Origin: a virus
Reading direction: 5' to 3' (one strand)
Virus record (IMG/VR): IMGVR_UViG_3300044974_000320
Location: 1-23,666 of that record
DNA length: 23,666 nucleotides
The position numbers and the translations under genes were made by a program. Under the pieces are notes generated by a model that saw nothing but the letters and a program-made list of their open reading frames with translations, made no database searches and was not told the DNA's origin. The number at the start of each line of letters is the position of its first letter. The stretch's first letter is position 1. This document shows, piece by piece, positions 3,052 to 23,666 of the stretch.

Positions 3052-6000
3052 TTATATATTCTCGAAAGACGCACCTGTTGGAGTGATATAGAACGTGATG
3101 TCTATAAATTCTAACGATTTGGTTGGTTTGATGTAAATCTTACCTGTCATTTGATTTCTGTCTAAATCAGCTGCGTCTGACGAAACTGTTACACGGAAAT
3201 CGTAAAGACCTCTATCTCTTCTAATCGAATCTAATATTGGGTTAACAGAATCTAAGAAGTCTTGTCTTACTTTAGCATCGTTTTGTTCAAATAATAATCT
3301 AACAGAAACTGCCGATATTAATTTACGTGCTTGAAGTAATAATCTTCTTACGTTGATTCTATCAAGAGCCGATTGTCTAATTTGAAGAGTTTTGTTACCC
3401 CAAATTACTGTTCCAACATCAGAGAACGTTGCGATTGGATTTAAACGACCTTGATATAGAGTATCTCTATTCTCTTGAGTTAATTTAATTCTCGCTTTAA
3501 CCGCATTTACAATACCTCTCGTGTAACCCGCAGCTGCGAACCAAGGATAAGCGATGTTGTCTGTTAACGCTAAGTTTCTCGTTACCTCAGCAGTTGCCGG
3601 TAAGTAAATTTGAGTATTATTAACAGTATCTCTCATTAATACCCAAGGGTAGTAAGTAGCCGTGTAGTTAGAGTCAATACCTGAATTCGCTAAATTATCT
3701 ACGGCCTCTTGTGGGTAAATAAAATCAAATTGATTACCTGTTGAAGGAACATACATATTGTAGTCAGGTGTTGTACAAACGTACAATGAATCCGCTCTAC
3801 TATATTCAATCATATCGATTGCGTTTTCAACTAAATTAGAGTTATTAACATAATCAATACCCGGTGTAACAAACACATTAATATTTACCGCTTCAGGATT
3901 TGCGAATGTTTCTTGACCCAATAAATAAGCGTAATAATCAGTGTTAGCAAAATCTTGAGTATTACCGGCCACACTAATTTGTTTAAATGCCCCCCAACCT
4001 GTCGCTGAAGGGTATCTTGGTGTTGGACAAGCTCCTTTTAAATAACCTGCTCTACCTAATACAAATCTATCAGTATTTGTTCTAAATTCTCTGTAGATAT
4101 CCCATCCATCAAAACCACCTTTAACTAGTAAAGTAAATTTACGTGCAAAAATTCTATAATAAGGATTTTCAGGGTTATCAGGGTCAGATGTAAATGGTGC
4201 ATCACCACAGAAGAACGCCGGAGTACCACTAGTTACAAACACATTTGGTATTGTAATACCTGTTGCGTTTTCGTCCATATGGAATCCTCTTGTTCTAAAG
4301 TTCCAAGGATTACCTTCAGTATCATTACAGATATCTAAAGGAAGTTGTGTTCCTTTATATTGGAAGAAGTCAACATCAATACCTTCAGTATCAGAGATAC
4401 CTAAATAAGTTCTTCTTACATTATCACCTGCACTTGTAGTTGTGTCGTCCGCACCTGATGCCAAACCAAATGGTGGATTATAAACTACTTCACCAGGATA
4501 ATAGTATTTAGATTTTATTAATGGGAATGGTGGTCTTACACCAGCATATTCTCTATAATCATATCCCAAGAATCCACAAGGAAGTGCATCTACAGGAGCG
4601 TCTTCATTCATTTCAACCATTACATAACTTGATAATAATGGATATTCACCATCTAAACTACCAATTTTTTTACCTACGAATGAATTATCTTGAGGGTTCA
4701 TTGTACAATTAGTATATTTTTCAAGAACTACAGGTGCTGAATCAGTATCGAAGAAATCTCTAATCAATACATCAAAAGTACCGTTGTTAAATGACATATT
4801 AGCTAACGATATTTTAATATCAACGTTAGCAGAATCACCATCAGCAATAGTTGTAAATTTAAATAAGTTATAAACTTTATTACCCCTTAATTCTGAAACA
4901 ACCCAAGGTGATACCGGAGATTGATATTTCTCTAAATAAAAAGCTATTGATGTTGGGTCAATTGCTTGACGTGCATCAGGTAAAGCAGTTAATTCACAAT
5001 TTAAACCTCTAATATAACCCATTCTCCACGCATTAGTTAATAATGCTTGGAATCTTTCTTCAACAAATAACGGAACAACTGTTCTCGGTTTAGAGAAGTT
5101 AGACGAACCAAATACTTTACTAATATATTTAGGGTCAGAGTTTGATAATGATGTTTCAAAGAAATATTGGTCACCATCTTTACTTGTGATGTTAACACCA
5201 AAAGTTGAAAATGGGTTTTTAGTTACACCAGAATATGTTCCTGTACAATCTAAACTAACATCAGTTAATCCTGATACTTCATAAACCGGACCATCATCTA
5301 AACCATATGTTGAAAGACCTCTTGAACGTAACGTAGCAATTACTAAATCATCATAATCAGTATATGCGGTTCCCGAGTAGACATAAATAACACCTATCAA
5401 TGTACCTGTATAACAATGAACCGGTTTAGCCGTCGTTGTTGAAGTAGTCGATGTTGATGTAGTAGTTGTACATGGGTCGGTCGTAGTAGTAGTAGTTGAT
5501 GTTGATGTTGTAGTTGTTATTACAGGTGTTAATGTTAACCCTGTTACAACAGACCAAAATGAAAATCCTGTATATGCCGCATTTCCAACATTATCGAATA
5601 ATGAGTAATACCAAGGGTCATTTTGTGGTGCAGAATAATTACATAAATTAGCACTTACATTATCAACTTCATAAACATTTGTTTCTCCTGTATATACTTC
5701 ACTTAATCCTGAATAAACACTTGTTGGTACCGCTCCATAGTAATAAATTGAAGTGTCTTCTTTTGATGGTGTTGAAACTACGTCAAAAATTTGTTTAGAG
5801 AAATCAGTATACAATGTACTCATACTACCATCAAACTGTTCGTAAGGTTCGTACAATATTGAAGATATTTCAGGTGCTAAATTAGATGTGTTTGTAAATA
5901 CAATACTATCAATACTATTTGTACACGCCGAGAATTCAATCGAATAATTTATTGTTTTGAAGTCAACACATTCAGAAACACAGTTAACTGTTGTTGCACT

Positions 6001-6378
6001 TTCACAAAAGAAATCAACCGTTGTTGGGTTAACATTAGCTTTTGTTGTTATAGACCAAGATGGTCCCGCATCATAACCTGATAATCCTAAAACTCTTGTT
6101 ACGAATAATTGGTTAGATTGTTGTAAGTATGATTTGGCAATATAAGCCGCTTCGTACTTTGGAATTTGTGTATTTATAAATTTTTCTGGAGAAGTTCCAC
6201 CGAAGAAATTTGTGAATTCATCAAAATTTCGTATAAAGATAGGTTCGAAAGCAGGACCTTTTAAGGTCTCACCCACAATACCCAACGTGGTAACCCCCAC
6301 ACTTTGTGCTACGAAACTTAAATCAACTTCAGAAGTATATACTCCGGGAGATACGAATACTTTTTGATTTGATGCCAT
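3052..6378 (-). CDS. Tail sheath protein with a large insertion and a Thr-rich tract
   Basis: An 1108-aa protein. The start MASNQKVFVSPGVYTSEVD is the classic sheath N-terminus, followed by VTTLGIVGETLKGPAF and FGG. The C-terminus has RDRGLYDFRV, DLDRNQMTGKIYIKPT and IDITFYITPTG, the sheath core that contacts the tube. T4 gp18 is about 659 aa, so this protein is roughly 450 residues longer. The extra material lies in the first two-thirds and includes a Thr/Ser tract at residues 288-316 flanked by Cys-containing beta-rich segments, probably displayed outside the tail. An in-frame ATG 20 codons upstream (6438) is rejected because the extension (MVFFIIFINK...) is not sheath-like and lies in the promoter region; the leader before ATG 6378 is AAAAAAGACAAACTA. 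A promoter-like motif is at 6411-6424. Confidence 0.93.
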   Translation of the reverse strand: MASNQKVFVSPGVYTSEVDLSFVAQSVGVTTLGIVGETLKGPAFEPIFIRNFDEFTNFFGGTSPEKFINTQIPKYEAAYIAKSYLQQSNQLFVTRVLGLSGYDAGPSWSITTKANVNPTTVDFFCESATTVNCVSECVDFKTINYSIEFSACTNSIDSIVFTNTSNLAPEISSILYEPYEQFDGSMSTLYTDFSKQIFDVVSTPSKEDTSIYYYGAVPTSVYSGLSEVYTGETNVYEVDNVSANLCNYSAPQNDPWYYSLFDNVGNAAYTGFSFWSVVTGLTLTPVITTTTSTSTTTTTTDPCTTTTSTSTTSTTTAKPVHCYTGTLIGVIYVYSGTAYTDYDDLVIATLRSRGLSTYGLDDGPVYEVSGLTDVSLDCTGTYSGVTKNPFSTFGVNITSKDGDQYFFETSLSNSDPKYISKVFGSSNFSKPRTVVPLFVEERFQALLTNAWRMGYIRGLNCELTALPDARQAIDPTSIAFYLEKYQSPVSPWVVSELRGNKVYNLFKFTTIADGDSANVDIKISLANMSFNNGTFDVLIRDFFDTDSAPVVLEKYTNCTMNPQDNSFVGKKIGSLDGEYPLLSSYVMVEMNEDAPVDALPCGFLGYDYREYAGVRPPFPLIKSKYYYPGEVVYNPPFGLASGADDTTTSAGDNVRRTYLGISDTEGIDVDFFQYKGTQLPLDICNDTEGNPWNFRTRGFHMDENATGITIPNVFVTSGTPAFFCGDAPFTSDPDNPENPYYRIFARKFTLLVKGGFDGWDIYREFRTNTDRFVLGRAGYLKGACPTPRYPSATGWGAFKQISVAGNTQDFANTDYYAYLLGQETFANPEAVNINVFVTPGIDYVNNSNLVENAIDMIEYSRADSLYVCTTPDYNMYVPSTGNQFDFIYPQEAVDNLANSGIDSNYTATYYPWVLMRDTVNNTQIYLPATAEVTRNLALTDNIAYPWFAAAGYTRGIVNAVKARIKLTQENRDTLYQGRLNPIATFSDVGTVIWGNKTLQIRQSALDRINVRRLLLQARKLISAVSVRLLFEQNDAKVRQDFLDSVNPILDSIRRDRGLYDFRVTVSSDAADLDRNQMTGKIYIKPTKSLEFIDITFYITPTGASFENI
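5431..5517 (-). repeat. Thr/Ser-codon tract inside the sheath gene
   Basis: Twenty-nine codons, mostly ACT/ACA/ACG with interspersed TCA/TCG, interrupted once by Asp-Pro-Cys. They encode residues 288-316 of the sheath. The DNA is a degenerate trinucleotide repeat and could vary in length by slippage. A similar tract is in the 281-aa protein (17679-17759). Confidence 0.85.
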
Positions 6379-6410
6379 TAGTTTGTCTTTTTTATTTGTA
6401 AATTTATTTT

Positions 6411-6424
6411 TATTGATAAATATT
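6411..6424 (-). promoter_or_regulatory. Promoter-like motif before the sheath gene
   Basis: The minus strand reads AATATTTATCAATA, about 32 bases before the sheath ATG. The identical 14-mer recurs before the minus-strand gene starting at 9475. It is divergent from the motif at 6460-6468 that serves the plus-strand RHH gene. Confidence 0.5.
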
Positions 6425-6459
6425 ATAAAAAAAACCAAAATACTTTACTTCATAAGAAG

Positions 6460-7701: not shown

Positions 7702-8238
7702 TTATTGTTTTGTTATAAATATTTTGTCTCTTAAATTTATCATTTCAACTTCACCGGCACGATATATTGGTTCTTCGGTGTCTTTTACAACATAAGAGTT
7801 ATATTTGTAAGGATTATAGGTAACGATATTATTATTTGGTTGAGATGGTAAATCCTCACAAGGGTGTTTACAATAATCATCTAAAGTTCCAATCACAAAT
7901 GAATGAACGTTTTTTCGTTTTTCTTTTAATACTTTTTCTCTACCACCTTGTCTAACTCTAAATTCAACATCTGATAATTTAACATAGTCAGCGTGAATTA
8001 TTACACGACCTTTATAAATGATTGAAAATGTGTGTTTATGCAAATTGTAATACAACATCACTTTTTTTCCAACATATTCTTTTTCTTGATTATCGTGACC
8101 ACACTTGTGGCAGATATAAGGGTCGTTTCCTCCGTCGGATAACGCCCAAGACCAACCACACTCGTCACAAATTACTTCTTTATTTGTGACAGTTTCTAAT
8201 AGTTTTCTATATTGATTTTCGTTAATAATTATTTTCAT
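7702..8238 (-). CDS. Zinc-ribbon phage protein with an MKIIINE-type N-terminus
   Basis: A 178-aa protein. Residues 1-15 are MKIIINENQYRKLLE, very like the start of the next gene upstream. A four-Cys zinc ribbon follows: C24-x-x-C27 and C43-x-x-C46, with GGNDPY between. A basic C-terminal domain (about 55-178) contains MLYYNLHKHTFSI and a Lys/Arg-rich KEKRKNVHSF. I recall similar proteins in phages but not an assigned function. The gene's first 17 bases overlap the end of the upstream gene (8222-8238), so the two are translationally linked. The isoleucine-rich start with I-N-E could be a capsid-targeting peptide (see findings). The CDS is well supported; function is unknown. Confidence 0.8.
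   Translation of the reverse strand: MKIIINENQYRKLLETVTNKEVICDECGWSWALSDGGNDPYICHKCGHDNQEKEYVGKKVMLYYNLHKHTFSIIYKGRVIIHADYVKLSDVEFRVRQGGREKVLKEKRKNVHSFVIGTLDDYCKHPCEDLPSQPNNNIVTYNPYKYNSYVVKDTEEPIYRAGEVEMINLRDKIFITKQ
7713..7722 (-). promoter_or_regulatory. Promoter-like motif inside the zinc-ribbon gene, for the 345-aa gene
   Basis: The minus strand reads ATATTTATAA followed by CAAAACAATAAC and the ATG at 7700. It lies in the last codons of the upstream gene. Confidence 0.45.
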
Positions 8239-8632
8239 AATCGTAATATGTTGAAATTGTTTTAACCGGTAAATTAAAATTATCTTGGAACCATTTTTTC
8301 ATTGGTTCTTCCCAATGATTACCAAACATATTATCCAAATGTTTGGAGTATTCCCCCAAAACTTCTAAAATCGGAGCGTCTTTATAATAACCGGAGTGTG
8401 TATCATAATATTCCTTTTCAAAATAATGAAATACCATATCTGAATCATATTCTCCTTGCCAATCACCCTGATAAAAAATTAAAAAGTTTTCATTTTCGCT
8501 ATTAATATCCGGATATCCATCTTCATCTTCATCCACACCATAAACCCAACCCATTTCACTTGGATTAAATGTTTTATCAATATAATTGTATATTGAATTG
8601 AATAGTTTATTTTCTGTTATTATTAGTTTCAT
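8222..8632 (-). CDS. Acidic hypothetical protein with an MKLIITE-type N-terminus
   Basis: A 136-aa protein of unknown family. It begins MKLIITENKLFNSIYNYID, matching the start of the 178-aa protein downstream (MK-x-I-I-x-E-N). The rest is strongly acidic and aromatic (GVDEDEDGYPDINSENEN, DWQGEYDSD, many Tyr and Trp), with no signal peptide or membrane segment. Its ATG overlaps the stop of the preceding gene by one base (8632) and its 3' end overlaps the next gene by 17 bases, so it belongs to one tightly coupled unit with both neighbours. The shared N-terminus suggests a common targeting or processing signal; the body may be a packaged or accessory protein. Function is unknown. Confidence 0.75.
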   Translation of the reverse strand: MKLIITENKLFNSIYNYIDKTFNPSEMGWVYGVDEDEDGYPDINSENENFLIFYQGDWQGEYDSDMVFHYFEKEYYDTHSGYYKDAPILEVLGEYSKHLDNMFGNHWEEPMKKWFQDNFNLPVKTISTYYDYENNY

Positions 8633-9525: not shown

Positions 9526-11301
9526 TTGGAAAACAATACATCTGAAAATAGTAATCTTACGTTAGAACAACGTGCGTTAACTCTCCTTGAAACTTACGAG
9601 GGGGCGAATAACTATATCCTTAAATTAAAATTTCAAAAGGAAAGTAATAAAAGATTTTACCCTACTCGAGCACAATCTGATTATATTATAAATTATTATG
9701 AGGTCATACCAAAGGTAGCTAAACGTTGGGTAGATTTAGACCCGTACTTTGCTAAAAAGATTGCCGATGAAAAATTACTACTAAAAATTCCTGAACAGGT
9801 ATGGGTTGAAAAGCTATTAGTTGAGAAAGAAAAATCCTATCACGTTTGGGGTAAAATTTTAGAGGGTGAAACCATCCACGAATTTTGGCTACCTAAAGGT
9901 GCTTTAATCAAAACACACACAATTAAAGATGTTAAAATTGATTACGAAAAATATTCACATCGACCACCACTAAACCATCAAAAAGAGGCTATTGAGAAAT
10001 TAGCCGGTTCCAAAAGATTTATTCTCGCTGACGATATGGGTCTTGGGAAGACAACGGCAACTATAATTGCTGCGTTAGAAACAGGTGCCAAAAAAATTCT
10101 AATAATTTGTCCGGCATCCTTAAAAATTAACTGGCAACGTGAGATAGAAAACTATTCCGATAGAAGTGTTTATATTTCTGAGAGTAAAAATTGGTCTAAC
10201 GAACACGATTTTGTTATCGTAAATTACGATATACTCAAAAATTTTTATGACCTCAAAGATAAAGATAATTCTTTAATTACCAAAGGTGAATTTGATTTAA
10301 TTATCTTGGATGAGGCACATTATGTTAGTAATGGTACCGCCGCAAGAACAAAATTGGTTAATAGTTTCACAAAAAAATGTGAAAGAGTTTGGTTATTAAC
10401 CGGGACACCGATGACTAACCGACCGATGAACTATTTTAACCTATTGTCTATTATTGAAAGTCCGGTGGCTCAGAATTGGATGGCTTACGCAATTAGATAT
10501 TGTCAGGGTTATCAGTTCACCGCGGGAACTCGTAAAATATGGAATGTAACCGGAGCATCAAACTTGGAAGAATTAAGAGACCGAACATCAAGACAAGTTT
10601 TACGTAGATTAAAAACAGATGTTTTAGATTTACCTGAAAAAATTATTACACCGGTTTACCTAAGATTAAAGTCAAAACTTTATGAAGGGTTAATGGGTGA
10701 GTATTATGATTGGTACAACAAAAACCCTGATGAATCAACCTCTTTAACAGTCCAATTCAGTAAGTTAATGAAAGTTCGTCAAGTGATTGCCGAAGAAAAA
10801 ATTAAAGATACTATAGAATTGGCTGAAAATATTTTGGAACAAGACAAAAAAGTTATTATCTTTACCAACTTTACCGAAACATTAAATAGAATTGCCGACC
10901 ATTTTGGGAAACAAGCTGTAAGATTAGATGGTTCAACATCAAAACCTCAAAGACAATATGCTGTAGACCAATTTCAAGATAATGAAAAAATTAAAGTGTT
11001 TGTTGGAAACGTGAAAGCAGCCGGTGTTGGTATTACACTAACCGCCGCTGAAGCCGTAATCATTAATGACCTATCATTTGTTCCGGGTGATTTAGCACAA
11101 GCGGAAGACCGAGCATACAGATACGGACAAAAAAATTCAGTGTCGGTTTACTATCCAATTTTTGATAACACCATCGAGGCTATTATTTATGATATGGTAA
11201 ATGAGAAGAAACAAAACATTGGAACGGTTATGGGAGATAACATTGGTGAGAGTGGTGACTTCATTGAAGAACTTATGAATAAAATCAACACCCGAAGATA
11301 A
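9526..11301 (+). CDS. SNF2-family DNA helicase / translocase
   Basis: A 591-aa superfamily 2 ATPase of SNF2 type. It has Walker A in DDMGLGKTT (G172-K175), DEAH box in ILDEAHY (D262-H265), motif III in LLTGTPMTN, motif V in GVGITLTAAE and motif VI in QAEDRAYRYGQ (525-535). Spacing and motifs resemble the SMARCAL1/HARP-like subgroup, which anneal or remodel branched DNA; in a phage it could serve replication-fork or recombination work like T4 UvsW. Residues 1-145 form a separate N-terminal domain. The start is a TTG at 9526: an in-frame TAA lies about 30 bases upstream and the first in-frame ATG is at the Walker A region, too late to be the start. It is the first gene of the plus-strand block, divergent from the connector unit. 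Confidence 0.92.
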   Translation: MENNTSENSNLTLEQRALTLLETYEGANNYILKLKFQKESNKRFYPTRAQSDYIINYYEVIPKVAKRWVDLDPYFAKKIADEKLLLKIPEQVWVEKLLVEKEKSYHVWGKILEGETIHEFWLPKGALIKTHTIKDVKIDYEKYSHRPPLNHQKEAIEKLAGSKRFILADDMGLGKTTATIIAALETGAKKILIICPASLKINWQREIENYSDRSVYISESKNWSNEHDFVIVNYDILKNFYDLKDKDNSLITKGEFDLIILDEAHYVSNGTAARTKLVNSFTKKCERVWLLTGTPMTNRPMNYFNLLSIIESPVAQNWMAYAIRYCQGYQFTAGTRKIWNVTGASNLEELRDRTSRQVLRRLKTDVLDLPEKIITPVYLRLKSKLYEGLMGEYYDWYNKNPDESTSLTVQFSKLMKVRQVIAEEKIKDTIELAENILEQDKKVIIFTNFTETLNRIADHFGKQAVRLDGSTSKPQRQYAVDQFQDNEKIKVFVGNVKAAGVGITLTAAEAVIINDLSFVPGDLAQAEDRAYRYGQKNSVSVYYPIFDNTIEAIIYDMVNEKKQNIGTVMGDNIGESGDFIEELMNKINTRR

Positions 11302-11313
11302 TCTATTTGTTGA

Positions 11314-11324
11314 GATATTTATAA
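11314..11324 (+). promoter_or_regulatory. Promoter-like motif before the SOD-nuclease gene
   Basis: GATATTTATAA, 19 bases before the ATG at 11344, followed by GAAATAAATAACAAGCCGA. The 11-mer is identical to the one before the neck gene (12881-12891). Confidence 0.5.
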
Positions 11325-11343: not shown

Positions 11344-12882
11344 ATGAAACATATTGAAAATAAAATCAAACTCATTACGGAAGAGATTCAAAATGTTGAA
11401 AAACAAGAGAATGAAACACTCTTTCTTAATGAGATGAAAAAGATAGGAATCGACAAATTACCATATTCCTATTCAGCACTAAAGCAATTTATTGATGCTG
11501 AAACAATGAACTACCATTATAACAAACATTATAAAGGTTATGTAGATAAACTAAACGCCGCTCTTAAAAACAAAGATTACGGTGATTTAGAACTTGAAGA
11601 AATAGTTAAATCCATCAGTAGATTTAATAAAACAATCAAAGATAATGCCGGAGGAGCGTTTAACCACGCATTGTTTTGGAAAATGTTATCCCCAAAAACT
11701 CAAACCCCAAATGGTGAAGTAATCAAACAAATCAAAAAAGATTTTAATACCTTTGCCAACTTTAAAAAAGAATTTGAAACTGTTGCAAAAGAAAGATTTG
11801 GTTCTGGATGGGTTTGGTTAGTCCTAACAAAAAGAAACACCTTAAAAATCGTATCTACAGCAAATCAAGAAAATCCATTAATGAATACTATTGAGGATGG
11901 TGGATATCCTGTGTTAGGGTTAGATTTATGGGAACACGCTTACTACCTAAAATACAGAAACAAAAAAGATGATTACATTAAAAACTTTTGGAAATGTGTA
12001 AATTGGGAATTTGTTAACAAATTATATATAATGAGAGTTGATAATAAATTAAATGAAAGTGCCGAATTAAAATCTGTTATTTCTGAAGGTAAATCTGAAA
12101 GATGTAGTAGAGAAATGAACGAAGCAATTCGTATGGTATTCAACATCAATCCAAAAGTTAAAACAATCTTCAAAGACGGAATTAACAGAATGTTAAAAGA
12201 AGTTTTCCCTGACAATTATTATGGAAATAATGAATATGACGAAGGAGAAGTTTCCGGAGTATATGATTTAGAAACTCAAGGTCGTTCAGTTTTAAATAAA
12301 CTAAACACAAACTATAGTTGTTTTTGTATTTTACTTAATGATGTTAATCAAGTTCTAAAAGCCAAACAATTACCTGAAATAAAAATGATTGGACTAAAAC
12401 CATTTGAACAAATAAGTGAAGTTAGAAAACTTGTAGATGTTTTAGATGAATACAAATTTAGAATATTTTCACAAAAATCATCCACATTCCAAAATCTTAT
12501 GAAAGTTTTAACCCAAACTAATAGTTGGGGACAATCAAGAGAAGATAAAACTATTGAAATATTAAAAAGACAATTCGGTGACGACAATGTTAATGCTGTC
12601 GGCAAACTTGGAAGTAAAGAGGATATGATTGGTGGTGTTGATTGTGAAGTAATTGTTGATGGTGTTAAAAAAACGGCACAAATAAAACCATATACCGGAG
12701 AAAAAGAAATAAAAGATTCAATAATGATTTTAGGGACAGGAAATGTTAAGAGATACTCTACCGATTGGTTAATTTTTACTCGTAATAATAAAGAAGTTTT
12801 GGTCTTTGACAATAAACATTCAAAAATAATGGACGGTCAGTTTATTTTCCCTAAAGAAGACCTGATTTATACATTAAGTTGA
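11344..12882 (+). CDS. Superoxide dismutase fused to a PD-(D/E)xK nuclease-like domain
   Basis: A 512-aa fusion. Residues about 35-235 are a complete Fe/Mn superoxide dismutase starting at LPYSYSALKQFID. Metal ligands are H58 (NYHYNKHY), H108 (NHALFW), D194 and H198 (DLWEHAYY), with gateway Y66 also present. Gly-Gly before NHALFW and Gln in STANQ (Q175) fit the Mn-type or cambialistic subclass. Such enzymes convert superoxide to peroxide and oxygen. Residues about 236-512 are extra: a helical linker, then a C-terminal domain with GGVDCEV (D433, E435) and QIKPY (Q446-x-K448), preceded by helix REDKTIEILKRQFG, resembling a PD-(D/E)xK nuclease core. The first 30 residues (MKHIENKIKLITEE) precede the SOD fold and contain I-T-E. 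It has its own promoter motif. The nuclease call is from motif spacing only. Confidence 0.88.
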   Translation: MKHIENKIKLITEEIQNVEKQENETLFLNEMKKIGIDKLPYSYSALKQFIDAETMNYHYNKHYKGYVDKLNAALKNKDYGDLELEEIVKSISRFNKTIKDNAGGAFNHALFWKMLSPKTQTPNGEVIKQIKKDFNTFANFKKEFETVAKERFGSGWVWLVLTKRNTLKIVSTANQENPLMNTIEDGGYPVLGLDLWEHAYYLKYRNKKDDYIKNFWKCVNWEFVNKLYIMRVDNKLNESAELKSVISEGKSERCSREMNEAIRMVFNINPKVKTIFKDGINRMLKEVFPDNYYGNNEYDEGEVSGVYDLETQGRSVLNKLNTNYSCFCILLNDVNQVLKAKQLPEIKMIGLKPFEQISEVRKLVDVLDEYKFRIFSQKSSTFQNLMKVLTQTNSWGQSREDKTIEILKRQFGDDNVNAVGKLGSKEDMIGGVDCEVIVDGVKKTAQIKPYTGEKEIKDSIMILGTGNVKRYSTDWLIFTRNNKEVLVFDNKHSKIMDGQFIFPKEDLIYTLS

Positions 12883-17339: not shown

Positions 17340-18185
17340 TTAATGACATGGAAGTAAATTATTAAAATTAACAATTCCGGTGATTATAGAATTAAAAACG
17401 GTAATTACTTGATATCCGTTTATTTGAGTAACATAACTACCATCATTAATCAATGAAATTGTTTGCCCATTAGGGTCACTATAAATTGTTCCACCTATTT
17501 GTAATGGGGTATACATATAATAATTCTCACCACCAATAATATAAAAAGGAGGTGCTAACACATAATCTTCAACAATACATTTAATTAGTTGAGGACCATC
17601 AGCAATAAAATCTATAAATAAATGACCAATATCATCATAAATGCCTGAACCCATATTAACTTCAGATAATACAGGAATTGTTGTTGTTGTGGTTGTAGTA
17701 TGATTAATTGTGGTAGTAGTTGTAGTACAAGGACAACATTCTGTAGTTGTTGTTGTAGTATAAGGTCCATTAATACAACAAGGGAATGTAGACACATAAC
17801 AACTATCGTAAACTAAATCATCCGCAATAAACGAATCTTGAACATTAATAAATAATTCTTCACGTATTGGTAATATAAGAACACCGTCAGAATTTCTTAA
17901 CATAAATTGACCGGCATAACGTCCAACTCTATTAGTATCTCTTGGAGTAAATTGATAATATATGTAATATTCAGGACCGGCGTTCAAGTCAACAAAAGTT
18001 TTTTCAACAAACCCTGCAGGTCTTGAACTTATTTTTGGAATACCCGTTTCTACGTCAACCATTGAGAAGAAAATGGCAGATTCTTCAATCATATCCATAA
18101 ACTTATTATAGTCACTTCTCCCGTCTTTAACTACTTGTAACTTTAATACCGGTAAGGTTGCGTTTTTCTTTATAAAAAAATCCAT
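17340..18185 (-). CDS. Thr-rich, Cys-containing virion-type protein
   Basis: A 281-aa protein in three parts. Residues 1-135 look like a beta-sandwich of baseplate or upper-fibre type (MDFFIKKNATLPVLKLQVV, later YYIYYQFTPRDTNRVGRYAGQF). Residues 143-169 are a Thr tract broken by ECCPC and INH. Residues about 170-281 are a second beta-rich domain ending LLPCH. A Cys pair also precedes the tract (TFPCCINGPY). The N-terminal domain vaguely recalls the BppU-type baseplate fold, but this is a weak guess. The Thr tract is like the one in the sheath, suggesting the same kind of exposed linker. A promoter-like TATTTATAA (18199-18207) and AAAAACAATAG leader precede the ATG. It is likely surface-exposed on the virion; its role is unproven. 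Confidence 0.65.
   Translation of the reverse strand: MDFFIKKNATLPVLKLQVVKDGRSDYNKFMDMIEESAIFFSMVDVETGIPKISSRPAGFVEKTFVDLNAGPEYYIYYQFTPRDTNRVGRYAGQFMLRNSDGVLILPIREELFINVQDSFIADDLVYDSCYVSTFPCCINGPYTTTTTTECCPCTTTTTTINHTTTTTTTIPVLSEVNMGSGIYDDIGHLFIDFIADGPQLIKCIVEDYVLAPPFYIIGGENYYMYTPLQIGGTIYSDPNGQTISLINDGSYVTQINGYQVITVFNSIITGIVNFNNLLPCH
17679..17759 (-). repeat. Thr-codon tract in the 281-aa gene
   Basis: Twenty-seven codons encoding six, six and seven consecutive Thr residues separated by ECCPC and INH, mostly ACA and ACT codons. This is a degenerate trinucleotide repeat parallel to the tract in the sheath gene (5431-5517). Confidence 0.85.
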
Positions 18186-18231: not shown

Positions 18232-19914
18232 TTAACTTTCTTTTCTTAACGAACCATCATAATGGTCAAATCTATTATGTTCAGTTGGTGTTAATAATAG
18301 TAGTCCCGGTTTAATGTTACCTATAACAGTTTCTTGATAAACATATGACATAATTGTTTGTTCAAATGGGTGAGCCCATCTTGTATCTAAAAAACATTTA
18401 TAGTTACCTTCTCTACTAACAACAATTGGCCAATTACATACGTAAATTTCACCTGTCACATATGGTAAACCATTATATGATTTAATATTTTTAAATTTTG
18501 TTTTAGGTGAATTAGGTTCTAAACCATGTTCAGGTAATCTCGGATTATCGGGCCAATGTCTTTGTCTAAAATCTTGTGGAACATTATACCAACTCCATTG
18601 AGTTCCATTGTCACCAAAAAATTCAGTAAAATTAAGTTTTAAAAAATCAAAATTTTCTTTTTTTACTATTTCTAAAGATTTTTTATATAAATTGGATACC
18701 CATCTATTAAACCCATTTTTACATGTTTCAATTTTGTTAGGATAAAAAGCCATATCATCTTCAAACCAAAAATAATAATCGTGATTTGTTTTATCAAAGT
18801 GGTCAGCAACAAAGATACGTCCACCAACTATACCAATATTATCTTTCTTAATATGTTCAAACCCATACTGTTCACATAACTCAATATATCTTGGAGTTGT
18901 TGATAAATCGGTCGAATTATTCAATAAATATTTTTTAGGTTTTTCAACAAAATCTTTATCATAATCCAACATAGATTGAATTAACACTTCAAATTGTTTT
19001 GGAGAATTAAAAGTTATCACATATAAACCAACATTATCTGTATTGATTTGAGGTTTATTTATTAGAATAAAATCTTTTGTGTATTTTTTTAATTCTTCAA
19101 AGAAAGGCCAAACTAACCCATTACCCTCAATTTCAAATCTATGGATTAAATCTTTATATCTATAAGAAAGTATTGTGAATAAACATTCGTCAGCACCCAT
19201 TAAACCTTCTTTTAACGTATCGTGCATTACTGAATAATAATATTCATTCATTCTGTGAATGTTATCTTTACTTCCACCAAAAAATCCGCCTCGACACACA
19301 TAACTAACGTAATCGGTATTACAGTAACGAGCCATAGATTTTCTTTCAAATCCATGAATCTCTTCACTACCATCATAAGGATATGATATTTGAATAAATT
19401 TATTATTGTTAAAACGAACATAATTTTCTAAATTATCCAAAACATTGTCATGAGTAAAATAACCTCGATTAACAGTATTAGTTAATCCACCATCAACCCA
19501 AAAGAAATAATCACTATTAAATGGATTAACAATCGCTGAATCATTTAACATAAAAAATTTGGTAAACATCATTGGATTATAATACTTTAATCCGGCTTGA
19601 GGAGATTCGGATAACCATCCCGCAAAATTTCTCCAATTATCTTGTGACCTAATTTTTTCAATATCGTCAAAAAAAGGATTCCAAGATTCAAAATCCTCAA
19701 CATTTTTAATAAAAATTTTAGTAGGTTTATTACCTCTAATTTTTAATACTTCATCTTCTAATTCTTGGGGAATCCAAATACACATTTGAGCATTTGTCTC
19801 TAACATTTCAAAAAACTTTGTCTTGTAATTTGAAAAATCTCTTTTTCCCCACCCATCAAGATTACCTCGACCTAAATCCCAAAGACCGGTCACTATTGTC
19901 ACATTATTATTCAT
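18232..19914 (-). CDS. Two-domain glycosyltransferase (HtrL/YibB-like plus GT-A)
   Basis: A 560-aa cytoplasmic protein with two enzyme-like domains. Residues 1-290 resemble the HtrL/YibB family: IVTGLWDLGRG near the start, a YYNPMMFTKFFML segment, and NPFNSDYFFWVDGG carrying a D-x-G metal-type motif. Residues about 295-560 look like a GT-A glycosyltransferase with VGLYVITFNSPKQFEVLIQ, and FWFEDDMAFY providing the acidic D-x-D-like site. It lies four bases after the 319-aa gene's stop, on the same strand, and there is no promoter motif between the three transferase genes, so they form one operon entering from beyond the window. The leader has no Shine-Dalgarno. Sugar donor and acceptor are unknown: host surface glycan, virion protein or DNA are all possible. 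Confidence 0.8.
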   Translation of the reverse strand: MNNNVTIVTGLWDLGRGNLDGWGKRDFSNYKTKFFEMLETNAQMCIWIPQELEDEVLKIRGNKPTKIFIKNVEDFESWNPFFDDIEKIRSQDNWRNFAGWLSESPQAGLKYYNPMMFTKFFMLNDSAIVNPFNSDYFFWVDGGLTNTVNRGYFTHDNVLDNLENYVRFNNNKFIQISYPYDGSEEIHGFERKSMARYCNTDYVSYVCRGGFFGGSKDNIHRMNEYYYSVMHDTLKEGLMGADECLFTILSYRYKDLIHRFEIEGNGLVWPFFEELKKYTKDFILINKPQINTDNVGLYVITFNSPKQFEVLIQSMLDYDKDFVEKPKKYLLNNSTDLSTTPRYIELCEQYGFEHIKKDNIGIVGGRIFVADHFDKTNHDYYFWFEDDMAFYPNKIETCKNGFNRWVSNLYKKSLEIVKKENFDFLKLNFTEFFGDNGTQWSWYNVPQDFRQRHWPDNPRLPEHGLEPNSPKTKFKNIKSYNGLPYVTGEIYVCNWPIVVSREGNYKCFLDTRWAHPFEQTIMSYVYQETVIGNIKPGLLLLTPTEHNRFDHYDGSLRKES

Positions 19915-19917
19915 ATA

Positions 19918-20877
19918 TTAAAATTTAAAATTAAATGTTTCGCCCTCATGAAGACCTATATTATATTTTTTATTTAAATTAGATTTAGGTGAAAAGTTAA
20001 CCATTAAAAATTTTTTAACCATCGGTACTGAATCACCACCCATAGTCAAATTATTTACATTAAAATTAAATTGTAAGTTATTTTCTTTTATTAATAATTC
20101 TTTTACAATGTCAGTGACATCATTACCTATATTTAAATTTGAATTTGAATACCCTTCATCTATTTGAAATTTAGGTGTCCCATAAAATGCTTTATGTAAT
20201 ACTATTTTATCTCCTGAATATTTTTTTTCTGATTTATACCAATCCTCACTAATATTTGTCAAATATGGATTATAATTAAACTTAAACCACTCATAATTTT
20301 TAACATTTTGAGAACCTTTATTTAACCAATCTTCATAAGCCCATCTTCCCCAAAGACCAACCGGTTCAGTTTTTTTAATATGGTTTGATTGTGACCACCA
20401 AAAATTACCCCAATACCAATTATTATTACAAGTTACACCAACATTATCATATTCATTTAGTAAGTTAACACATTCCTCCCATTTATCAATTACAAAATAC
20501 TCTAAACATTCTCTCCATGATTTAATATTTTCAATTTTTTCTTCAGATATTGTTTTATTGTAATAATCGTCATAATTATTACTTACACCTTTTGAATGAA
20601 AATAAAATATTTTGGTATTGTGATTTAAAGCTAATTCTCTAACTTTTTTAATTCCCGGGTATTCAGCGTTATTGTCTGTAAAATATTGAATATTTAATTT
20701 TGGATAATCTAACACAGTATCCTCAAATTCGGATTTTTCTGTTTTATCTAAATTAACAGTAACTTCTATTATATCCGCAGAATCGTAAAGTCCCGAAGAT
20801 TTTAATCTATTTAATTGTTCCTTAACAATTTCTTTCCAGTTACCAACCAGATAACAATGGTAAACAACACTTATCAT
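19918..20877 (-). CDS. Glycosyltransferase-like protein
   Basis: A 319-aa protein that starts MISVVYHCYLVGNWKEIV. Characteristic segments are KIFYFHSKGVSN (about 89-100), SWRECLEYFVIDKWEECV (about 119-136), YDNVGVTCNNNWYWGNFWW (about 143-161) and a WAYEDWL segment. This combination matches a family of capsular or viral glycosyltransferase-like proteins that I recall with an FH(T/S)KG motif. No classical D-x-D site is obvious, so catalysis is not certain. The C-terminal 70 residues form a separate polar domain (NNLQFNFNVNNLTMGGDS) of a kind often added for binding. It lies between the two larger transferase genes with nine-base and three-base gaps, in one operon. Confidence 0.75.
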   Translation of the reverse strand: MISVVYHCYLVGNWKEIVKEQLNRLKSSGLYDSADIIEVTVNLDKTEKSEFEDTVLDYPKLNIQYFTDNNAEYPGIKKVRELALNHNTKIFYFHSKGVSNNYDDYYNKTISEEKIENIKSWRECLEYFVIDKWEECVNLLNEYDNVGVTCNNNWYWGNFWWSQSNHIKKTEPVGLWGRWAYEDWLNKGSQNVKNYEWFKFNYNPYLTNISEDWYKSEKKYSGDKIVLHKAFYGTPKFQIDEGYSNSNLNIGNDVTDIVKELLIKENNLQFNFNVNNLTMGGDSVPMVKKFLMVNFSPKSNLNKKYNIGLHEGETFNFKF

Positions 20878-20886
20878 ATTTTTTTA

Positions 20887-23666
20887 TTATTTTTTAATTA
20901 TTACACTAGTGACGCTCCAATCAGGTCTGTTTTTATAAATTTCAACACTTTTTATATTTTCAGATAAATAATCCATATCATCTTGAGTCATATAATCGGA
21001 TTCAATTTTACCGGTTTCCTTAAATAATTGTAACATATTTAGTGTAATTGTTTTTGATGAATCACCCCACCCACACCAAGATTTTTCAGGCATAACCGCC
21101 TCAAAACTAGTGTGTAAATCTTCAAGTATGTATATACCGTCAGATTTTAACATTTTAAACAATTTGGCTAATGTAATCTGTTGGTCTCTCATTTTATGAG
21201 ACCCGTCATCTAAAATAACATCAACATTAGAATATGTTTCACTAAATTTAATCAAATCTTCTTCTTTAGATTGGTCACCATCAATAAAAGTCATTCTTTC
21301 TCTATTAGTGTTTCCTAGTCGTTCAAAACTATATGGTAAATTATTTTCAAAACCAATTATTTCAGAATTAACAAAATAATCTCTCCATAATTTAATTGAT
21401 TCTCCATCAGACACTCCAATTTCAATAAATGTTTTAACATCTAAATAAATGTCTTTAAATAGTTCATTATAAACTAAATTAAAAAAATTATGCTCATAAT
21501 GTTTATCAGTTGAATAATATTGAATAATGTCTAATAATTGAGTTCCGGTAGGTAATGGGATTTCAAATTTTTTGTAATAAATTGAATCAATAGTTCTATT
21601 TGGTAAATTACCATACGAAAATGCGTGAAATATAAACCTATTCGGATTATATTCACGAGAGTTAAAATCAAAATTATCAATAATTTTAAATTCTTGTGGT
21701 GTAGTTAAACGTTCGTGTAATAACCCAATACATGTTTGGTCATGCCATAACCCTTCTTTATATTGGGGGAATTCTTCACAAATGTCCCACCAATTTTTTA
21801 GAAAATCTTTAGAGAATTGATTATTTTTAATTAACATAACTCCGGCATTGACTAATGATGGACCATAATCTTTAGTCATTAATATACTAAAGTCATTAGT
21901 TATAAATTCCTCAATTTTTCTATTATTATCACAAAAAATTGCATCAATATCTAAAAATAAAACATACTCACAATCAGGGTATAAATTGAAAACTTCTTCA
22001 ATTAATAAAGGTTTATACCAAGTCCAAGCTCGAGTACCGATTTTATTTTTTATTTTATCACCATCTTTTTCAACATAATAATTATACCCATTATCCTCAC
22101 AATATTTTTGATTAATTTTTTCTGAATATTTTCCATAAGAAACATTTGACGTATAAAATTGACAAACAACTATTTTTTTATTTTCTATCATATAATCTTT
22201 TAATTTATTTAAATTTTGTTTCGTACCATGTAGTAATTTAGTATTTTTTATTTTAAAATGGTCAGATTCTTTTACACTAAAATCACCTAAAAAAACTTCA
22301 GACGTGGTATCCAATGGGTTAAAACAACAATTTAACCTTTTATGATTAATGTTATTTTCAAAAACATACTTAATAATAAAAAGTTCTTCAGGGTATCTTG
22401 AATAAAAATGATTTTGATTGTAATTGTGACCAAAATATTTTTTATGGTTTTCTTCAGTTATACTTAATAACTCTAACATGTTTTTTTGTTTACCCCCAAA
22501 AAAATTACCCATAGTCCATTTTTCTTCAGATGTGTTAAAATTTAATTCAACAATATCTGTAATTTCTTCGTGAATACCTTTTACCGGAGGTGCAAAATAA
22601 TGGTCTAAAAATGTAAAATCCGATTCTAACATTTCATCACCAATTTCTTTAATGAAGATTTGGTCATTATCGTTAACAAAAATATAATCATATTTGTCTT
22701 CAAGATATTTTAAACTCAAAATTTTCATCAAACACATATGCCAAAAATTATCAATTTTATAATCAAAATTTATATTTGTAACACCATCAATTTTAACATC
22801 ACTATTGTTCATAAAAATAAACTCAACATCGTGATGAGGTAAAAAATATTTTTTAGCACTTTCATAAAAACAATTAGTCATGAATCTATATTCTTCACTT
22901 ATACCATTATTTCCACCAAAGTTATACCATCCACTTATTACTGCTATTTTTTTTCTCATATTTTTAAACATTTTTTTTATTGAGTCATCAAAAACTTCAT
23001 ATTTTTTATTAGAATGACCCATATGACCTTGAAATTGATGTAATCTAAATGTATGGTTTGTTGAGTTAAAATCCACATTATTTCTATATTCATGTAGAGA
23101 TGGTCCTAAATGAACATCCACATCAAATATTTTATCCAAATAAATTTTACCTCTGATAATTGATTTACCACAACTTAAATGCCCATTATCTATTCGTTCT
23201 TGACATGACCATCTATAAAAATTTTGTTCTGTAATTGATTTATCGTAATCAAAAGGTGGGGTAAAATTATACATAGGAAGATAAAGAATATTTTCGTTAA
23301 CTTCTGATAGTGTTTTTTTTAAATCATAATCATCTATGTTATTAGGTACTATCCATTCATCAACATCAAAAATAGATATCCAATCAAAATTATTCCTTAA
23401 AGACATAAAACCATCTTTAAACGATTCTAATTGTCTATTCAAGTTACCTCCATTATGATAATTTCCGTTATACTCTCCAATAGGATTTGTAAATTTATAA
23501 TCAATACTATATGTTTTCTTTAACTCATTTAAAATTTCTTCAGAATCATCTTCAGGGTTATCTAAATAAAATAAAAAATGGTCTACATTATGAAAATAAG
23601 AATGAAACTCTACCCACTCTTTTAATCTTTTTGACTCATTTCTAATTTGAGTTATTACCGCTAAAG
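20887..23666 (-). CDS. Multidomain glycosyltransferase / methyltransferase (5' end outside window)
   Basis: The frame is open from the stop at 20887 to the window edge: 925 visible residues, no start seen. A TTG at 23442 is an internal Leu codon, because the residues before it (AVITQIRNESKRLKEWVEFH) continue the first domain. Order of domains, numbering from 23664: (1) GT92-like, to about 225, with DWISIFDVDEW; (2) GT6-like, about 235-475, with NDNDQIF and FTFLDHYF; (3) GT34/MNN10-like GT-A, about 500-690, with TWYKPLLIEEV and FLDIDAIF; (4) a SAM-dependent methyltransferase, about 715-925, with FIEIGVSDGESI, VDVILDDGSH and GIYILEDL. Such a chain would build and methylate an oligosaccharide. 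The acceptor is unknown. It heads the visible transferase operon. Confidence 0.85.
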   Translation of the reverse strand, partial: LAVITQIRNESKRLKEWVEFHSYFHNVDHFLFYLDNPEDDSEEILNELKKTYSIDYKFTNPIGEYNGNYHNGGNLNRQLESFKDGFMSLRNNFDWISIFDVDEWIVPNNIDDYDLKKTLSEVNENILYLPMYNFTPPFDYDKSITEQNFYRWSCQERIDNGHLSCGKSIIRGKIYLDKIFDVDVHLGPSLHEYRNNVDFNSTNHTFRLHQFQGHMGHSNKKYEVFDDSIKKMFKNMRKKIAVISGWYNFGGNNGISEEYRFMTNCFYESAKKYFLPHHDVEFIFMNNSDVKIDGVTNINFDYKIDNFWHMCLMKILSLKYLEDKYDYIFVNDNDQIFIKEIGDEMLESDFTFLDHYFAPPVKGIHEEITDIVELNFNTSEEKWTMGNFFGGKQKNMLELLSITEENHKKYFGHNYNQNHFYSRYPEELFIIKYVFENNINHKRLNCCFNPLDTTSEVFLGDFSVKESDHFKIKNTKLLHGTKQNLNKLKDYMIENKKIVVCQFYTSNVSYGKYSEKINQKYCEDNGYNYYVEKDGDKIKNKIGTRAWTWYKPLLIEEVFNLYPDCEYVLFLDIDAIFCDNNRKIEEFITNDFSILMTKDYGPSLVNAGVMLIKNNQFSKDFLKNWWDICEEFPQYKEGLWHDQTCIGLLHERLTTPQEFKIIDNFDFNSREYNPNRFIFHAFSYGNLPNRTIDSIYYKKFEIPLPTGTQLLDIIQYYSTDKHYEHNFFNLVYNELFKDIYLDVKTFIEIGVSDGESIKLWRDYFVNSEIIGFENNLPYSFERLGNTNRERMTFIDGDQSKEEDLIKFSETYSNVDVILDDGSHKMRDQQITLAKLFKMLKSDGIYILEDLHTSFEAVMPEKSWCGWGDSSKTITLNMLQLFKETGKIESDYMTQDDMDYLSENIKSVEIYKNRPDWSVTSVIIKK

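Follow-up and report, generated by a model that had tools for sequence, protein, structure and literature searches.

The 23,666-nucleotide stretch of viral DNA analysed here (hereafter the window; positions 1 to 23,666, the whole of IMG/VR virus record IMGVR_UViG_3300044974_000320) contains a gene in which an Fe/Mn-type superoxide dismutase (SOD) is joined to a C-terminal module (hereafter C-module) that very probably, judging from its predicted structure, has a PD-(D/E)XK-type nuclease fold. A check of the open reading frames (ORFs) of the window revealed that the 512-codon frame at 11344–12882(+) is uninterrupted and encodes a single 512-residue protein. The domain fusion and the SOD fold are near certain, and on the sequence evidence we lean slightly toward the explanation that the protein is packaged into the capsid and cleaved there. 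The gene product would then be a polyprotein that large T4-like phages make late and package into their capsids, with residues 1–30 serving as a capsid-targeting propeptide, residues 31–235 as an active Fe/Mn-type SOD, and residues 249–512 as a PD-(D/E)XK (Hjc-like) nuclease. As the head matures, a prohead protease of the T4 gp21 type would cut after (I/L)-x-E at E30 and at E238/E248 in the linker, freeing the SOD and the nuclease inside the head. Both would be ejected with the genome, whereupon the SOD may scavenge superoxide, either within the infected cell or close to packaged DNA, and the nuclease may have as its target the DNA of the host or of competitors, or else branched phage DNA. In this scheme, late expression, targeting, cleavage, ejection, the enzyme activities, and their targets are what we infer. 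The features of the gene are as follows.

11344–12882 (+): SOD–PD-(D/E)XK fusion gene, 512 residues
11344–11433 (+): candidate capsid-targeting propeptide, residues 1–30; predicted helix of variable sequence, ending in (L/I)28-x-E30
11434–12048 (+): Fe/Mn superoxide dismutase domain, residues 31–235; Pfam, VIA Z 24.4, invariant ligands
12049–12057 (+): candidate prohead-protease site L236-N-E238; conserved, in the low-confidence linker 233–248
12079–12087 (+): candidate prohead-protease site I246-S-E248; [IL]xE in 35/36 sequences, in linker 233–248
12088–12879 (+): C-module, residues 249–512; helical part at about 256–374, PD-(D/E)XK-like core at about 380–512
12541–12543 (+): E400, acidic and invariant, on the long core helix (alignment)
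12622–12624 (+): D427, invariant (alignment)
12640–12642 (+): D433, the PD-(D/E)XK aspartate (alignment and model)
12679–12687 (+): Q446-I-K448, the (D/E)xK position in QxK form (alignment and model)

Domain fusion and superoxide dismutase

Pfam recognized both SOD domains above its cut-off, Sod_Fe_N at residues 36–116 (E 2.7e-22) and Sod_Fe_C at residues 122–226 (E 2.7e-39). The four metal ligands named by an earlier sequence-only reading of this DNA (H58, H108, D194, and H198) are identical in all 81 aligned sequences, that is, the window and 80 homologous loci, bearing out the complete SOD that it had described. Residues 33–234 of the predicted model match solved Fe/Mn SODs, with 4yio at Z 24.4 (2.1 Å over 197 residues) and many SODs tying; the fold search with the whole-protein model was informative on the SOD only. 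Moreover, G104, Q175, and G192-L193, which we take to be Mn-type SOD positions, are invariant in 38/38 sequences. The likeness to the Fe/Mn SOD family (PF00081/PF02777) and to 4yio comprises the whole fold, the four ligands, and 41% identity over 197 aligned residues, whereas the window protein adds the 30-residue N-terminal extension and about 275 C-terminal residues. The SODs of PA5oct-like Pseudomonas phages and of Vibrio phage 2.275.O share the SOD domain with it (28–29% identity), but their alignment is confined to that part. Among 12 bacterial SOD loci obtained by a bacterial genome scan, the best (50% identity) came from a Chitinophagaceae metagenome-assembled genome (MAG), followed by Halomonas (48%), Clostridium (47%), and then several Bacteroidetes MAGs.

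The fusion was surveyed in the best 80 of 599 matching IMG/VR stretches (56–98% identity), among which near copies are common; 36 sequences, the window's included, remained at less than 95% identity. One ORF spanning the query is the sole match in 74 of the 80 loci. In five further loci the fusion is also one ORF, ending at residue 510 in one of them (L032), and a second, paralogous C-module gene lies elsewhere in the locus; in the last (L064), the contig end truncates the fusion at residue 337. Both parts thus share one frame, in the domain order that the sequence-only reading had suggested seeking in viral metagenomes, in 79 of the 80 loci, and on this ground misassembly, which that reading had raised against itself, can be rejected. 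In INPHARED (50,697 phage records), matches spanning 80% of the query were absent; 31 records gave partial matches, nearly all to the SOD part, and two of them, from 735-kb megaphages, to nothing but the C-terminal part. Some of the 31 records have bacterial names. A library of viral-protein structures holds the C-module in a 1113-residue uncharacterised marine phage protein and in a 501-residue 'superoxide dismutase [uncultured Caudovirales phage]' (A0A6J5L953), the latter matching over 256 columns with TM 0.89 on the query and 38% identity. By name and length A0A6J5L953 is the same fusion, which would accordingly be already public in UniProt; it differs from the present account in being listed solely as SOD. 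A search over partial literature found no account of such a SOD–nuclease fusion or of N-terminal tags such as those described below.

Fold and active site of the C-terminal module

No known sequence family could be assigned to the C-module, for which the sequence-only reading had proposed a profile search: residues 237–512 matched no Pfam family even when E values up to 1 were allowed, had only a chance-level PHROGs match (E 0.11), and lacked significant hits to PDB sequences (best E 0.41). Sub-threshold Pfam leads were scattered among 31 members, namely MC4 (E 0.0002, one member), YcaO_C (0.0015, one member), and the restriction enzyme RE_MjaI (0.0018, three members). Modelled alone, the module reached a predicted local distance difference test score (pLDDT) of 90 and a predicted template modelling score (pTM) of 0.84, and exhibited the alpha-beta core that the reading had expected of a PD-(D/E)XK nuclease. 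Foldseek against the PDB placed I-Ssp6803I first (E 0.022) and Hjc resolvase second (E 0.039), none falling below 0.001. In VIA-align, Hjc was on top (2wcw, Z 8.8, 3.4 Å over 100 residues; four Hjc entries at Z of at least 8.0; matched region, about 390–512), followed by NhoI (7.5), SPARDA chains, I-Ssp6803I (7.3), Eco15I, and DpnI (6.1), with RecU and PvuII lower; nearly all of these top matches are presumably PD-(D/E)XK enzymes. Z values near 8 are common in VIA-align, also for models with no clear match, and absence of a family from its lists does not exclude that family; what argues for a nuclease fold is therefore that the top rows agree, together with the conserved residues.

The likeness to Hjc resolvases (2wcw, 4tkd) and I-Ssp6803I (2ost) consists in the fold of residues 390–512 or so, E400 in the long helix, D433, and the spacing D-x12-Q-x-K; the same D-to-K spacing and helix glutamate are present in Sulfolobus Hjc. 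The C-module differs from these enzymes in having QxK for ExK and an extra helical half (256–374), and its sequence similarity to them does not rise above noise. D433 and Q446-x-K448 had been picked correctly beforehand, being invariant in 80/80 sequences (L064 ends before them). E435, named as a third site residue, is E in only 52 of the 80 and is ruled out as catalytic, the conserved acidic residues nearby being E400, D427, and D433. Together with Q446, K448, and P449, these three are invariant in 31/31 members, including five paralogues at 25–27% identity, which suggests that the chemistry has been kept even in distant relatives. The nuclease-like domain of the sequence-only reading thus survives in its fold, with modest scores, and in its D433 and QxK residues, and loses only E435.

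Two points tell against this assignment. The Z of 8.8 for Hjc is only slightly above that of models with no clear match, as the best Foldseek E of 0.022 is also modest, and D433 and K448 are invariant, yet the acidic residue of (D/E)xK is Q446 in 80/80. The module might therefore have a PD-(D/E)XK-like fold that is catalytically dead and is used for DNA binding or scaffold contact, with the SOD as the sole activity. Such a state would agree with the glutamine, with the lack of a significant sequence match to solved structures, and with the scattered Pfam leads; we nevertheless judge it improbable, because the six residues are invariant even in paralogues as distant as those above. Glutamine at this place occurs in active enzymes such as Mrr. 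Overall, the C-module is probably an active nuclease.

Candidate protease sites and N-terminal tags

Four (I/L)xE sites, and no others, are conserved in at least 90% of the 36 sequences: E30, E238, E248, and E197, the last standing beside the SOD metal ligands. The [IL]xE30 motif is found in 36/36 although the 30-residue extension varies, E238 in 36/36 with I/L two residues before it in 33, and (I/L)246-x-E248 in 35. The only segments of the model with pLDDT below 50 are residues 23–43 and 233–248, and E30, E238, and E248 all lie within them (37 of 510 positions; hypergeometric p 0.0013, computed post hoc). E30 is also situated just ahead of model residue 32–33, where most solved SODs begin to align. 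In T4, the prohead protease gp21 cleaves after L/I-X-E, the propeptides removed from virion proteins are 7–65 residues long, that of gp23 being 65, and the first 10 residues of IPIII are enough for entry into the head (passages of PMC9026906); for SPN3US, a giant phage, nine head proteins are described as having fourteen cleavage sites between them (passages of PMC10052503). Like the T4 internal proteins (IPI–III and Alt), the fusion has a propeptide-like N-terminus ending in (I/L)xE, and its relatives carry a gp21-family protease; unlike them, it has extra candidate sites between two enzyme domains and a longer extension, and its packaging is putative.

The protease was recognized as a Peptidase_S77 (gp21 family) match above the cut-off in three of eight long records that carry the fusion, that is, G001 and G002, two related 322-kb phage records (loci L160–L193), and G004; the others may be fragments. 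No gp21-family protease was found among the genes of the window, a 23.7-kb fragment. Downstream of the protease gene, G001 and G002 carry first a scaffold gene (assigned by eye) and then the capsid gene. For the G002 capsid protein, gp23-type matches were obtained in 2498 phage records, and the gp23-like capsid proteins of both phages contain LINE-ATSD, its E being residue 60. The nearest capsid proteins are those of Microcystis phage Mel-JY01, a metagenomic 484-kb phage, and Flavobacterium phages (immuto); because of these capsid relatives, the promoter-like motif described below, and some of the SOD relatives, our guess is a Bacteroidota host.

Short N-terminal tags recur on otherwise dissimilar proteins of G001 and G002. 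The start MKxx(I/L/V)(T/S/N)E is present in 39 of their 625 ORFs, against 1 of 2484 windows beginning at an internal Met (shuffle mean 0.67, maximum 5), and the tagged ORFs make up 30 body families (blastp linkage, E 1e-3). A second kind of tag (LTESDL..., alike over about 22 residues) is carried by 12 ORFs of 12 body families, in 10 of which (I/L)xE closes the tag on reading by eye. Looser patterns raised the total to 60 ORFs in 50 families, some probably matching by chance and one fitting both kinds; the forms MKxxITExQ, MKKxIRLTESDLxxLVKRVIxEQ, and MKKxLITEEEKxxIxxLY are thus spread over up to 60 ORFs with dissimilar bodies. Moreover, (I/L)TE is enriched near the N-terminus (37/308 vs 6.8 and 35/307 vs 3.8), and the tag pattern is absent from the 76 ORFs of the 12 bacterial loci. 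Pfam, applied to 20 of the 60 tagged proteins, gave above the cut-off two peptidoglycan-binding, one chitinase-like, and one Phage_L5_gp82 match, with two sub-threshold matches and 14 proteins having none. The annotation of the cultured relative immuto, of whose 160 kb all but about 10.7 kb was read, lists gp20, a prohead serine protease, and gp23 in T4 order; the fusion had no match in immuto in the INPHARED search. Two of its three tag-matching ORFs share a different start, LSEQF...GIITES. Their common start MKKQILSEQFxRMQxLAGIITES (MW353175; L213:1646–2140 and L214:25055–25456) is a further candidate tag in an isolate.

Paralogues of the C-module were found fused to Phage_L5_gp82. An N-terminal tag is present in 11/11 of these fusions examined, as well as in two more (L033 and L047), and a (I/L)(S/T/N)E-like interdomain site in 9 of the 11, the other two, which are shorter proteins, having only LFE further on. 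Such fusions are located in L027, L028, L030, L032, L033, L036, L044, L047, L048, L049, L058, L061, and L063; the Phage_L5_gp82 copy of the window, at 7702–8238(−), is without the module. Two other arrangements were seen: a stand-alone 290-residue C-module relative, without tag or SOD, in a 735-kb megaphage (LR756501.1, 692651–693523; L212:2743–3615), and a distant C-module protein with a tag-like start in G002 (118020–119060; L166:4104–5057), encoded directly after the prohead protease gene and having no match in the phage collection.

Nine distinct ORFs lack the SOD at the same place and retain the extension, (I/L)xE, and the nuclease; in L094 and L095, a remnant aligning with the start of the SOD is still present. 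Relocation of the SOD can be rejected for the six such records searched (two of 308 and 318 kb, four fragments of 54–91 kb), none of which has a SOD match elsewhere. In a C-module tree of 62 rows (47 with SOD, 8 without, and 7 paralogues), rooted by distant paralogues on long branches and with the SOD rows L073 and L080 also long, the SOD-less rows are nested in SOD-bearing groups. The SOD-less form is therefore not favoured as ancestral, and since two changes within these groups are needed, two losses of SOD are suggested as the simplest reading. The sequence-only reading had held that homologues with SOD and C-terminal part as separate genes would point to a misassembled frame; relatives with extension and nuclease but no SOD do occur, whereas the tree favours losses rather than a misassembled fusion.

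Two other explanations were weighed. One takes the nuclease as a DNA-processing enzyme acting before or during packaging, such as an Hjc-like debranching enzyme in the prohead, with the SOD protecting capsid DNA and nothing delivered to the host. The fold, nearest to Holliday junction resolvases, and the gene directly after the prohead protease gene in G002 would suit it; several relatives have no SOD, and we give it very little credence. The other, akin to the DNA-binding alternative of the sequence-only reading, is an unpackaged cytoplasmic enzyme with two functions, whose nuclease-like part binds DNA and keeps the SOD near phage DNA to protect it from superoxide, the (I/L)xE motifs being incidental. 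It fits the domains staying fused in 79/80 loci, the 80th ending with its contig, and the discussion of viral SOD as an auxiliary metabolic gene buffering reactive oxygen species (passages of PMC12542629). It leaves unexplained, however, why (I/L)xE is conserved in otherwise variable, low-confidence linkers, why an extension precedes the usual SOD start, why paralogous nuclease fusions bear tags, and why the SOD can be absent with the extension kept; we regard it as rather unlikely. Packaging with cleavage would accommodate these features, and the proviso of the sequence-only reading, that the protein be carried in the virion, has gained sequence support from the conserved (I/L)xE sites, the tag families, and the gp21-type protease in relatives.

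Promoter-like motif and gene surroundings

The promoter-like motif that the sequence-only reading had placed ahead of the fusion was confirmed as ATATTTATA at 11315–11323, and TATTTAT occurs at most 55 nt upstream of 46/46 distinct homologous genes (shuffle mean 2.2, maximum 7). Upstream of the ORFs of G001 and G002, ATATTTAT is the top-ranked enriched 8-mer (115 vs 13.4 expected, 581 upstream regions), and another enriched motif, TATCTTTG, resembles what we take to be the Bacteroidota −7 box. In G001, ATATTTAT stands ahead of the protease gene and the SOD fusion, and in both phages it stands ahead of the scaffold-like genes; genes that by eye encode tail tube, neck, and terminase proteins have it as well. 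The TATTTAT-type motif is a putative late promoter. The TATCTTTG-like motif is rarer before tagged ORFs (1/57 vs 52/551, p 0.048).

Several observations weigh against a late, packaged, and cleaved protein. The weakest link of the argument is the extension of the SOD protein itself, which does not follow the strict tag pattern and has its own ITE-like motif, at residues 11–13, in only 28 of 36 sequences, so that what ties it to the tag families is position and (I/L)xE. The described SPN3US cleavages yield N-terminal propeptides, that of the protease itself excepted, and leave 42 head proteins uncut (passages of PMC10052503), a pattern that speaks against cutting between domains. As to the tags, the family counts come from two related phages, in which diverged orthologues were possibly counted twice; (I/L)SE shows no N-terminal enrichment (9 vs 8.2 and 11 vs 8.4); and a second (I/L)xE at residues 15–30 is only moderately commoner in tagged ORFs (22/60 vs 114/555). 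In immuto, the tag pattern is found in only 3/195 ORFs; the immuto capsid protein has IVSE-A at the corresponding site, where V instead of I/L stands two residues ahead of E. Finally, ATATTTAT also precedes genes that look non-structural by eye, a DNA polymerase gene among them, and its association with tags is weak (13/57 tagged ORFs vs 65/551, p 0.034).

The fusion gene is set, as the sequence-only reading had stated, between helicase and neck genes. The surrounding features of the window are as follows.

7702–8238 (−): Phage_L5_gp82-family protein with N-terminal tag MKIIINE (Pfam)
8222–8632 (−): protein of unknown function with N-terminal tag MKLIITE (tag pattern)
9526–11301 (+): SNF2-type helicase, upstream neighbour (Pfam, PHROGs)
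11315–11323 (+): late-type promoter candidate ATATTTATA, starting 29 nt before the start codon
12904–14046 (+): neck or head-tail adaptor-like protein, downstream neighbour (phrog_211, E 8.9e-11)

No tRNA genes were found in the window. Two unrelated proteins, encoded at 3052–6438(−) and 17340–18185(−), contain by eye long threonine-rich runs resembling shared low-complexity linkers, and at 18232–23442(−) three successive genes look glycosyltransferase- or sugar-enzyme-like, the end of the last one being methyltransferase-like.

In its widest form, which we advance tentatively and as somewhat short of an even prospect, the proposal is that short N-terminal (I/L)xE peptides form a genome-wide system that targets dozens of dissimilar protein families to the capsid, the SOD–nuclease being one such cargo, a polyprotein matured in the head, with the SOD an optional insert between protease sites and both enzymes delivered with the genome. 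If so, a superoxide-removing enzyme and a nuclease would reach the host with the phage genome, ahead of any phage gene expression, and the tags might reveal injected proteins of uncultured large phages directly from sequence. The cultured Flavobacterium phages (immuto), with gp23-type head genes and two tag-like starts, would provide a bench system for the tag.
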